NCBI RefSeq assembly: GCF_000368065.1
Contig: NZ_KB851200.1
Coordinates: forward strand, 985,204 to 1,049,203
Direction of reading: 5' to 3'
DNA: 64,000 nt
Origin: Acinetobacter seifertii
Lineage (GTDB): Bacteria; Pseudomonadota; Gammaproteobacteria; Pseudomonadales; Moraxellaceae
Positions 12,530-14,374 of this stretch are shown here, one piece after another (position 1 is the first letter of the stretch; each line of letters opens with the position of its first letter). A model generated the notes under the pieces. It searched no databases. It was not told the origin of the DNA and saw only the letters and a program-made list of their open reading frames with translations. The position numbers were made by a program, and so were the translations under genes.

Positions 12530-12892
12530 ATGTTAATTGATAGTCTTTCTATAACCCGAATACTCAGTGTGTTCGGGTTATTTATTATTACTGCCATCGC
12601 TGAGATTTTAGGGTGTTACTTTCCTTATCTTATTTTGAAAGAAGGGAAGTCCGCTTGGTTGTGGTTGCCGACAGTCTTAAGTTTAGCTGTCTTTGTTTGG
12701 TTACTTACATTACATCCAGCAGCCTCTGGACGAATTTATGCGGCCTATGGTGGTATTTATATTTTTACCGCGCTGATGTGGCTACGTTTTGTCGATCAGG
12801 TTGCTTTAACGAGATGGGATATTTTAGGTGGGTTGATTGTACTTTGTGGTGCCAGTTTGATTATTTTACAGCCGCAAGGATTAATCCGCTAA
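12530..12892 (+). CDS. YnfA/UPF0060 family small membrane protein
   Basis: 120 residues with four hydrophobic helices. The family fingerprint [22 protein letters not shown]...[17 protein letters not shown] is unmistakable (broken here by a gap). The family is structurally SMR-like; drug export has been suggested for some members but the role is not settled. It starts 3 bp after the clpA stop, so it is probably the distal gene of clpS-clpA-ynfA, but there is no clear Shine-Dalgarno, which suggests coupling to clpA translation. Confidence 0.85.
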
Positions 12893-12953
12893 AAATGAAA
12901 GTGGTCAGTTAAGTTTTAAGTGAAAAAGTAAGAAATATTTTCGCAAAAAACAC

Positions 12954-12982
12954 TTGTCAAACTCATCAACAATGCGTATTTT
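12954..12982 (+). promoter_or_regulatory. Candidate sigma-70 promoter for the aroG leader
   Basis: TTGTCA (12954-12959), a 17-bp spacer and TATTTT (12977-12982), preceded by TGCG as a partial extended -10. Predicted start near 12989 gives a leader of about 330 nt before aroG, long enough for both short leader ORFs. Confidence 0.55.
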
Positions 12983-13018
12983 AGATTTAAGGAACATTTT
13001 TTAATATTTGAGATAAAG

Positions 13019-13075
13019 ATGTTAAATCAATCTGTGAATTCTAACGCTTACTTTTATTTCTGGCAATTTAGATAG
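13019..13075 (+). CDS. Leader peptide 1 of the DAHP synthase gene (Tyr/Phe/Trp-rich)
   Basis: An 18-codon ORF, MLNQSVNSNAYFYFWQFR. Six of the nine residues 10-18 are aromatic (Y, F, Y, F, W, F). It has a weak Shine-Dalgarno (GAGAT) upstream, and the aromatic codons are followed after about 50 nt by a strong intrinsic terminator. This is the architecture of a ribosome-stalling attenuator, as in the trp, phe and his leaders. Scarce charged tRNA-Tyr, -Phe or -Trp would stall the ribosome over the GGCAA segment (13062-13066) that can otherwise pair with TTGCC (13076-13080). The peptide itself is inferred to have no function beyond being translated. Confidence 0.8.
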   Translation: MLNQSVNSNAYFYFWQFR

Positions 13076-13134
13076 TTGCCTGAGCGTATTCGGGCACGAA
13101 AGTTGCCCATCACAGTTAATACCTGATCGGCAAC
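13061..13134 (+). promoter_or_regulatory. Competing RNA pairings of the aroG attenuator
   Basis: GGCAA occurs at 13062-13066 and, as GGCAAC, at 13129-13134 in the terminator stem/loop. GTTGCC occurs at 13075-13080 and 13102-13107. Either GTTGCC can pair with either GGCAA. A 7-bp hairpin (TGCCTGA/TCGGGCA, 13077-13083 with 13090-13096) and GGGCA/TGCCC (13092-13096 with 13104-13108) offer further alternatives. Which fold forms in which state needs an RNA-folding calculation. Confidence 0.6.
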
Positions 13135-13151
13135 CCCGATCAGGTTTTTTT
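13122..13151 (+). terminator. Attenuator terminator in the aroG leader
   Basis: Perfect 9-bp stem CCTGATCGG/CCGATCAGG, loop CAACC and seven T. It lies 46 bp after the stop of leader peptide 1 and about 170 bp before aroG, so unless antitermination occurs the aroG transcript ends here. Confidence 0.9.
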
Positions 13152-13184
13152 ATGCTTTATCTTTTTCAAATCGAGGAACTCAAA

Positions 13185-13277
13185 ATGAACAACATGACTT
13201 ATTCATACTTTAGCAACTTTTATTGGTTTTACTTTTGCCTACCTTTGCCAACGAATAGATCCAAAACGCTTAAATAA
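13185..13277 (+). CDS. Leader peptide 2 of the DAHP synthase gene (extremely aromatic)
   Basis: A 30-codon ORF starting MNNM and containing TYSYFSNFYWFYF, then CLPLPTNRSKTLK. Nine of those 13 core residues are Tyr, Phe or Trp, far beyond chance. The start has a good Shine-Dalgarno (GAGGAA, 13173-13178) about 6 nt before the ATG, better than that of leader 1. It lies downstream of the attenuator terminator, so it is translated only from read-through transcripts. Its TAA abuts an ATG (13278) opening a 14-codon ORF that overlaps the aroG start as ATGA, so translation may be coupled through to aroG. No T-run terminator follows, which suggests action on translation or on RNA stability; this is inference. 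Confidence 0.75.
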   Translation: MNNMTYSYFSNFYWFYFCLPLPTNRSKTLK

Positions 13278-13283
13278 ATGATC

Positions 13284-13314
13284 GGACTGATTCGGTTTCA
13301 GTCCAAAGGAAAAG
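13284..13314 (+). promoter_or_regulatory. Hairpin next to the aroG ribosome-binding site
   Basis: GGACTGA (13284-13290) pairs with TCAGTCC (13298-13304). The aroG Shine-Dalgarno AAAGGA begins on the next base. The hairpin starts 7 nt after the stop of leader peptide 2, so a ribosome finishing or stalling on that ORF would affect its folding. Confidence 0.6.
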
Positions 13315-13318
13315 ACCA

Positions 13319-14374
13319 ATGAATGCTTTAAATACTCTACTAACTCAAAGTAATACAAAAGAAACACCAGTTAGTTTACCTGTCCAGTTAAAAGCTAAAT
13401 ATCCGCTTGTGCAGACCTTCGCACGTCAAATTGCAGAACACCGCCAAATTATTCAAAATATTCTTGCTGGTAAAGATCAGCGCTTAATGGTTATTACAGG
13501 ACCATGTTCAATTCATGACCCAGTTGCGGTTCTTGAATACGCAGAAAAACTGCAAAAATTACAAGAAAAAGTAAAAGATCAAATATTCATTGTGATGCGT
13601 GCTTATATTGAAAAGCCGCGTACAACTGTAGGTTGGAAGGGTTATATGTATGATCCAAATCTTGATGGATCATCTAATCTACAATTAGGTTTAGAAAAAT
13701 CACGTGAGCTTTATTTACAAATTATTGAAAAGGGTTTGCCAATTGCGAGCGAAATTTTAAGTCCAATGGCAACAGGTTATTTCGATGATTTGTTGGCTTG
13801 GGGAGCAATTGGTGCTCGTACCAGCGAGTCTCAGATTCACCGTGAAATCTCAAGTCACATGTCATACAGCATTGGTTTCAAGAATGGCACAGATGGTTCA
13901 ATTCAAATTGCTTTAGATGCTATTCAGTCGGCACAAAATGAGCATCAATTTTTAGGAATGAATCAGCAAGGTTTGCCTTCTGTCATTCAGAGTGCTGGAA
14001 ACCCATTGCCGCACTTGATTTTGCGTGGAGCAAATCATGGTCCTAATTATGACTTAGCTTCAATTCAGGCAATACGTGAAAAACATAAACAAAATCTTCC
14101 TGCTTTAGTTATTGACTGTAGTCATGGCAACAGTGGTAAAGATCCTTTACGTCAACCAGAGGTTTTACAGCAAATCGTTGCTGAGCGCTTAAAAACTCAA
14201 GTAAAGGGTGTCATGATTGAAAGCCATTTAGTTGATGGTAATCAGAAAATTTCATGTGAAATGACTTATGGTCAGTCAGTGACAGATGGTTGTTTAGGCT
14301 GGGATAAAACGGAGCAGCTTTTGTTAAGCGTTGCTGAGCAATTAAAAGCAAATGAGTTAGCTCATTCTGCTTAA
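13319..14374 (+). CDS. aroG: 3-deoxy-7-phosphoheptulonate (DAHP) synthase, class I alpha
   Basis: Condenses phosphoenolpyruvate and erythrose 4-phosphate in the first step of the shikimate pathway. Class I-alpha signatures: GPCSIHDP near residue 61, the KPRTTVGWKGYMYDPNLDGS substrate loop, the PIASEILSP and GARTSESQIHRE segments, and the metal/PEP residues in CSHGNSGKDP. 351 residues, matching E. coli AroG/F/H. The N-terminal ~30 residues form the arm where feedback inhibitors bind in this class; which amino acid inhibits this enzyme cannot be told here. Expression appears controlled by the tandem leader ORFs and attenuator upstream. The symbol follows general usage; aroF or aroH would be equally defensible. 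Confidence 0.93.
   Translation: MNALNTLLTQSNTKETPVSLPVQLKAKYPLVQTFARQIAEHRQIIQNILAGKDQRLMVITGPCSIHDPVAVLEYAEKLQKLQEKVKDQIFIVMRAYIEKPRTTVGWKGYMYDPNLDGSSNLQLGLEKSRELYLQIIEKGLPIASEILSPMATGYFDDLLAWGAIGARTSESQIHREISSHMSYSIGFKNGTDGSIQIALDAIQSAQNEHQFLGMNQQGLPSVIQSAGNPLPHLILRGANHGPNYDLASIQAIREKHKQNLPALVIDCSHGNSGKDPLRQPEVLQQIVAERLKTQVKGVMIESHLVDGNQKISCEMTYGQSVTDGCLGWDKTEQLLLSVAEQLKANELAHSA

Follow-up and report, generated by a model that had tools for sequence, protein, structure and literature searches.

The window analysed in this study is a 64,000-nt stretch of Acinetobacter seifertii contig NZ_KB851200.1, and all coordinates given below are window positions. The subject is the leader of a gene for 3-deoxy-7-phosphoheptulonate (DAHP) synthase (13319–14374), located, like the leader elements described below, on the + strand. 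The enzyme is named in this way by two NCBIfam models that scored above cut-off (PRK12755.1 and aroFGH); the AroG equivalog model scored below its cut-off, and "aroG" is therefore used here as a name of convenience. Behind one predicted promoter the leader contains, in this order, (i) a short open reading frame (ORF1), (ii) an intrinsic terminator, (iii) a second short reading frame (ORF2) and (iv) a hairpin (H), followed by aroG. The leader is real and conserved, and it is most likely a two-step attenuator.

Organization and conservation of the aroG leader

The predicted sigma-70 promoter (TTGTCA-17-TATTTT; 12954–12982) is the sole sigma-70-like match of a pattern scan on the + strand of region 12700–13500. 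The scan of this region found three matches, compared to 2.5 expected by shuffling, hence no excess. ORF1 (13019–13075) encodes the leader peptide MLNQSVNSNAYFYFWQFR and is followed by the terminator (13121–13151; stem 13121–13145, T-run to 13151). This is the only terminator-like site on the + strand between ORF1 and aroG, and no second site 3′ of ORF2 was detected by the intrinsic-terminator scan of 12700–13500, which found four sites on both strands (0.7 expected). ORF2 (13185–13277; leader peptide MNNMTYSYFSNFYWFYFCLPLPTNRSKTLK) is preceded by the Shine-Dalgarno sequence GAGGAA (13173–13178), placed 6 bases 5′ of its ATG; the ribosome-binding site of ORF1 is weaker by eye. A further in-frame ATG is found in the window 11 codons 5′ of the ORF2 start. 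The ORF2 stop codon lies 6 bases 5′ of hairpin H (13284–13304), which abuts the Shine-Dalgarno sequence of aroG (AAAGGA, 13305–13310; start codon 13319–13321). The layout claimed by the original prediction, with two leader ORFs, a terminator and a hairpin at these places, ORF2 located 3′ of the terminator and provided with the better ribosome-binding site, was in this way borne out by the sequence and by the terminator scan.

The distribution of the leader was examined in a sample of 175 Acinetobacter genomes. A search with the leader DNA gave matches in 168 genomes, and the leader-bearing DAHP synthase copy was found in 169; all 169 loci were collected. In genome G144 this copy is kept and the leader has diverged, with both ORFs present. 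A strict script recognised ORF1 together with the terminator in 162/169 loci, and a Shine-Dalgarno-led ORF2 as well in 160/169; in the nine loci missed (L125, L129, L132, L137, L143, L254, L258, L259 and L271) both ORFs appear in looser listings. The ORF pair occurs far above chance expectation. In six genomes (G116, G128, G129, G147, G148 and G168) only a second DAHP synthase of 47–51% identity was seen; five of the six are 1.4–2.4 Mb in size, and the G128 genome is only 65% complete.

Each recognised ORF1 contains 5–8 aromatic residues, with Phe, Tyr and Trp all represented in 162/162 cases. The recognised ORF2s (20–55 codons) contain 5–11 aromatic residues in 160/160 cases and are on average 28% aromatic. 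Trp is missing from 7/160 of them, including the frameshifted locus L102 and A. baylyi (L043), whose ORF2, MFNLATSYFSNVDYFYFNQHLQLNRSSLLK, has no Trp codon. The earlier claim that Tyr, Phe and Trp are all sensed fits these data, with the Trp-less ORF2s as a qualification. In L102 (genome G142) ORF2 is frameshifted directly after SYF and ends after 20 codons, which may reflect either a real loss or a sequencing error.

The nearest named relatives of the window protein, at 100% and 98% identity, are from Acinetobacter nosocomialis. The scan for protein relatives, which may omit the window's own genome, gave 57 loci, each of them labelled Acinetobacter. The window's genome also carries a second DAHP synthase (L002; G000:C6:1350243–1351238; 49% identical), and no comparable ORF pair is found upstream of it. 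In 15 other genera of the family (one genome each) this second type was the only DAHP synthase found, and no comparable ORF pair was detected, though single short aromatic-containing ORFs occur.

A divergent clade of six loci (L141, L142, L147, L136, L143 and L144, from genomes G077, G071, G078, G085, G100 and G153) carries a DAHP synthase of about 49–58% identity beneath the same ORF1 and terminator. In this clade the last 25 bases of ORF2 lie within the gene, and the sequences of L136 and L141, the two inspected, showed no H hairpin. The enzyme was possibly replaced under a retained leader.

An attenuator model (R1), built from 29 loci, gave one convincing match in the window's genome, that is, the locus described here. 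Two further matches, on C11 (E 0.006) and C10 (E 0.22), were judged by eye to be ordinary terminator-like stems, and the third extra match at E≤1 corresponds to this locus read in reverse. A search of 293 genomes of the order, run with stricter filters at which weak matches are lost, gave four matches at E≤0.01: the window's genome, one more of the genus and two others, the latter read as ordinary terminators.

For the analysis of selection, the 142 loci in which the gene start was placed at once were reduced to 66 representatives of less than 90% identity, 63 of which gave usable cores. The promoter hexamers and the GGAg of the ORF2 Shine-Dalgarno sequence are conserved in the consensus of the 66. 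For ORF1, the ratio of nonsynonymous to synonymous differences (pN/pS) was 0.15 in its reading frame, compared to 3.0 and 0.7 in the two others; for ORF2 it was 0.36, compared to 1.25 and 0.85. These ratios indicate that both leader peptides are under selection. Aromatic content is retained in both while the flanks drift. This is the pattern for which an alignment across Acinetobacter had been proposed as a check, and the compensatory changes looked for were found as well, both in the stems that follow ORF1 and in hairpin H (see below); the larger part of the proposed check thus had a positive outcome.

The codon usage of the two ORFs is different. Phe codons of ORF1 alternate between TTT and TTC from genome to genome, and in ORF2 two positions are TTT in 62/62 and 59/59 cases, another being TTT in 50 and TTC in 4. 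Counted over all Phe codons, TTT outnumbers TTC by 121:25 in ORF1 and by 258:15 in ORF2, compared to 82:43 in the first part of aroG. This bias suggests that ORF2 carries a second constraint, acting at the RNA level. The 3′ end of ORF2 (13268–13276; GCTCAAATA in relatives, GCTTAAATA in the window) is fixed at the nucleotide level: G occupies the third position of codon -3 in 62/63 representatives, whichever residue (T, L, K, S or M) is encoded, which is a mark of the same kind of constraint. This segment could pair with the ORF2 core (helix T; possible partner 13206–13214), to which it is complementary in nearly all 63 representatives. Helix T contains a conserved C-U mismatch and does not covary, and on these grounds it was set aside, as was helix T′, likewise formed by the core and the 3′ end of ORF2. 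When other partners for this 3′ end were sought by sliding, the best hit was attenuator segment 3, taken as a chance match of a G-rich stretch. A candidate third ORF, beginning with an ATG directly after the ORF2 stop codon, was also rejected: just 17/63 representatives have the T required at the second position behind the stop codon, so the extra ATG of the window is not general.

ORF1 and the probable attenuation of transcription

The region from the 3′ part of ORF1 to the terminator contains four attenuator segments: 1 (13062–13066), 2 (13076–13083), 3 (13090–13097) and 4 (13102–13108). Segments 2, 3 and 4 and the terminator are nearly invariant among the 63 representatives. Segment 4 can pair with GGCAAC located inside the terminator (13129–13134), and by sequence this antiterminator pairing and the terminator are mutually exclusive. 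The terminator loop bases C13131, A13132 and A13133, which are needed by the antiterminator and not by the terminator alone, are kept in 62–63 of the 63 representatives.

The stems were also compared in more divergent genomes, with 164/169 loci extracted by pattern and reduced to 47 representatives. Terminator pair 13128–13138 shows a C-G to T-A exchange in 7/47 and is broken in none. Four of the five counted pairs of the terminator stem are kept in 47/47 and the fifth in 46/47. The upper 2:3 stem is represented by G-C, G-U and A-U types, with 6/47 unpaired at this position. In a separate tree-aware covariation test one terminator pair reached p=0.0049 (uncorrected), and no pair of that scan survived correction.

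The proposed course of events is as follows. When aromatic tRNAs are charged, the ribosome would reach the ORF1 stop codon and cover segments 1 and 2, so that stem 3:4 and then the terminator form. In aromatic shortage the ribosome would wait at the aromatic codons of ORF1, which would allow 2:3 to form and leave segment 4 free to pair with GGCAAC, and transcription would continue. Equilibrium folding speaks against such a switch, in that it gave the terminator in 63/63 representatives at every ribosome position; stage 1 would therefore have to be kinetic. For RNA in which the 3′ arm of the terminator has not yet been made, the mean probability of the antiterminator was 0.95–0.96 when the ribosome was stalled; it fell to 0.76 in the absence of a ribosome and to 0.69 when the ribosome stood at the stop codon. 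In kind, this stage is almost certainly a classical ribosome-mediated transcription attenuator, with an architecture observed directly in the conserved segments and a switching behavior that we infer.

ORF2 and the probable control of aroG translation

No intrinsic terminator-like site follows ORF2, and for this reason an effect of ORF2 would be exerted on translation, which is probable on the present data. The layout, with a leader ORF and its ribosome-binding site directly 5′ of the gene and no terminator between them, is that of translation attenuation of the erm/cat type.

In the favored mechanism, the aromatic codons of ORF2 (13212–13237; the predicted lock strand of helix S) would pair, in read-through RNA, with the aroG Shine-Dalgarno sequence and start codon (13305–13321). 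A ribosome that finishes ORF2 would free the codon strand and the aroG start would be closed; a ribosome waiting on the aromatic codons would cover this strand and the start would be open. In the window, the predicted duplex of 13212–13237 with 13304–13328 has an energy of -19.2 kcal/mol and covers both the Shine-Dalgarno sequence and the start. The calculated cost of opening the aroG start, 9.7 kcal/mol in the absence of a ribosome, falls to 3.0 kcal/mol when a ribosome occupies the Trp codon and rises to 11.2 kcal/mol when it stands at the ORF2 stop codon.

Since U-rich codons and purine-rich start sites pair partly by composition alone, three tests were applied to 63 of the 66 representatives, which stand for the 142 loci placed at once and not for the 27 recovered later; the three dropped have an ORF2 that either runs over the gene start or escaped recognition. 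In the partner test, which compares the pairing of each ORF2 with its own start site and with those of other genomes (row/column-corrected), helix S was stronger with its own partner, by a mean of -0.81 kcal/mol over all 63 representatives (z=-3.4) and with z=-2.2 in a set of 35. In the synonymous-codon test, with a ribosome at the stop codon, the codons actually used close the start by 1.07 kcal/mol more than random synonymous codons (p=5e-5, n=63; 17/63 in the top 5%), and by 1.03 kcal/mol in a smaller set (n=43, p=0.0005); for a control site inside aroG the difference was 0.11 kcal/mol (p=0.57; 8/63 in its top 5%). The third test compared the terminating with the stalled ribosome: the mean difference over the aromatic codons is 2.27 kcal/mol, compared to 1.26 kcal/mol for random codons (p=1e-4), and it exceeds 1 kcal/mol in 45/63 representatives.

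Several results count against a lock of this kind. The partner test for S was not significant in the smallest sets (p=0.14, n=16; p=0.10, n=14), and of its two control pairings one was flat (z=-0.75) and the other deviated in the opposite direction (z=+2.45, n=63), so relatedness leaves a mark in this test. The synonymous-codon effect was weaker at n=22 (0.74 kcal/mol, p=0.09). The difference between the terminating and the stalled ribosome was below -1 kcal/mol in 4/63 representatives, including L043 (A. baylyi), where the predicted start-closing pairing fails, L048 and L051. For helix S, the comparison of fixed columns gave no covariation (in the tree-aware scan no pair was significant after correction; best E 6.5), and RNAalifold, run on 32/63 representatives, recovered three pairs of H only and not S. 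Folds of individual genomes show the S pairing in different registers. These observations fit a pairing that would be strong in the window's own clade and would shift its register or fail in other clades. Taken together, they leave the codon-start pairing as a moderately supported candidate for the ORF2 switch.

Hairpin H is itself a regular feature of the leader. A stem of at least 4 pairs is found in this region in 62/63 representatives, with a mean energy of -8.8 kcal/mol compared to -2.8 kcal/mol for shuffled sequences. Double exchanges occur in the stem (GGATTG/CAATCC, AGACGC/GCGTCT and GGGCTG/CAGCCC beside the common GGACTG/CAGTCC), and a few representatives form a different stem. One pair reached p=0.0016 in the tree-aware test (uncorrected), and none survived correction over all column pairs. 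As a direct lock H was rejected: in the predicted folds it pairs beside the Shine-Dalgarno sequence and not with it. H may instead shorten the loop and keep the aroG start beside its partner. The core of the original prediction, control of transcription followed by control of translation, fits the comparative data; for the switch itself the codon-start pairing is a better candidate than the hairpin.

Three other explanations of ORF2 were considered. According to the first, which we regard as unlikely, ORF2 senses shortage and acts on translation by another route, that is, by direct hindrance from the finishing ribosome, via H or via helix T. Direct hindrance of a downstream initiation by a finishing ribosome is known from B. 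subtilis rtpLP, and the ORF2 of the divergent clade reaches 25 bases into aroG; in the window, however, the ORF2 stop codon is about 30 bases from the Shine-Dalgarno sequence, with H between them, which is far for such an effect. Helix T draws on the nucleotide-fixed 3′ end of ORF2 and its complementarity to the core, and the partner test was positive for it (z=-3.7 for 63 representatives, -2.0 for 14), yet it bears the conserved mismatch described above and lacks covariation. Departures from the S fold in some genomes also favor another route; the synonymous-codon result is not predicted by this explanation.

A quite improbable second explanation is that only ORF1 regulates, and that ORF2 is translated to cover the RNA or to hand ribosomes to aroG, with no sensing involved. 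Homeostasis needs no second layer, and the better ribosome-binding site of ORF2, close 5′ of aroG, would suit such a role. A coupling ORF, however, needs no 5–11 aromatic residues, and these are kept in 160/160 cases while the flanks drift; moreover, with coupling, stalling would lower the amount of enzyme in shortage, which is the wrong direction. The third, that ORF2 encodes a small protein functioning in trans, is in keeping with the in-frame selection and the recurring C-terminal Arg-Pro/Ser...Leu-Lys, but it is highly improbable given that the sequence and length drift widely with aromatic content kept, and that the third base of codon -3 is kept while the residue changes.

We therefore favor, as a rather probable reading, two successive ribosome-stalling sensors, ORF1 for polymerase read-through and ORF2 for aroG translation, with the codon-start pairing as the lock. 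In a shortage of Phe, Tyr or Trp, each of the two stages would increase the output of DAHP synthase. More tentatively, and at slightly less than even confidence, it is proposed that the same amino acids are sensed twice in series, with the hungry codons of ORF2 serving as sensor, peptide code and lock at once, and that the response is thereby multiplied and steeper.

Known attenuators and the significance of the double leader

The first stage has well-known counterparts in trpL and pheL of E. coli, attenuators that follow a competing-stem logic. Regulatory codons and a terminator are common to these and to the ORF1 stage (in excerpt, PMC11802643), and trpL and pheL differ in having no second leader peptide. 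For a DAHP synthase operon, the aroR leader peptide of C. glutamicum, located before the aroF operon and containing Phe-Tyr-Phe, attenuates transcription, Tyr availability being without effect; it is, unlike the present case, a single leader peptide acting on transcription only (excerpts of PMC11802643). Two leader peptides, ErmBL and ErmBL2, are needed for the translation control of ermB, which differs in that stalling is drug-induced and no amino acid is sensed; the role of ErmBL2 is there said to need study (excerpts of PMC8274638).

The original prediction had held that a second stalling peptide placed after the terminator was not known to be described, and this was too strong. Chen and Yanofsky reportedly described, in 2003 and 2004, a leader peptide mechanism following a T-box in B. 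subtilis rtpA (anti-TRAP). As in the leader studied here, one signal is read twice per leader in rtpA, first at read-through and then at translation, via leader-peptide codons located after the terminator. Its first sensor is, in contrast, a tRNA-binding T-box (in excerpt, PMC11255114) and Trp alone is sensed, whereas the first sensor here would be a leader peptide; no Rfam family was matched in the window at gathering scores, hence there is no T-box and the leader is not of the rtpA type. The excerpted PMC11255114 lists a 2003 paper whose title speaks of uncharged tRNA-Trp being sensed serially, at transcription and at translation.

Tandem attenuators are carried by the mgtCBR leader of Salmonella, where two short ORFs in one leader (mgtM and mgtP) are each an attenuator. 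There the signals differ (ATP and proline) and both act on transcription, in contrast to the same amino acids and the lack of a terminator after ORF2 in the present leader (mgtCBR after excerpts of PMC3641672). The aroG leader thus shares with this type the two ORFs in one leader and not their joint action on transcription, as no intrinsic terminator follows ORF2.

In the open-licence literature, from which subscription journals are mostly missing, no gene of amino acid biosynthesis was found that has two leader peptides, and the main text of PMC2965389 contains no mention of Acinetobacter, aroG or DAHP. Tandem attenuators and serial sensing at transcription and translation are already known; the combination proposed here, in which each step has a leader peptide of its own and both peptides serve the same amino acids, was not found in that literature.

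In its textbook form, attenuation normally involves a single decision taken on a single leader peptide. A genus-wide leader carries here two peptides for the same amino acids, the first so placed that it can gate transcription and the second so placed that any effect must come later. Such a leader lets one ask why cells read one signal twice, be it for gain, noise, speed or the use of different amino acids at each step. Natural variants, like the ORF2 of A. baylyi without Trp and the one divergent clade with ORF2 over the aroG start, are useful in this respect. If the second stage operates as proposed, codons that specify a peptide can at the same time serve as an RNA lock, and starvation would be read both at polymerase read-through and at translation initiation for the entry enzyme of aromatic synthesis.

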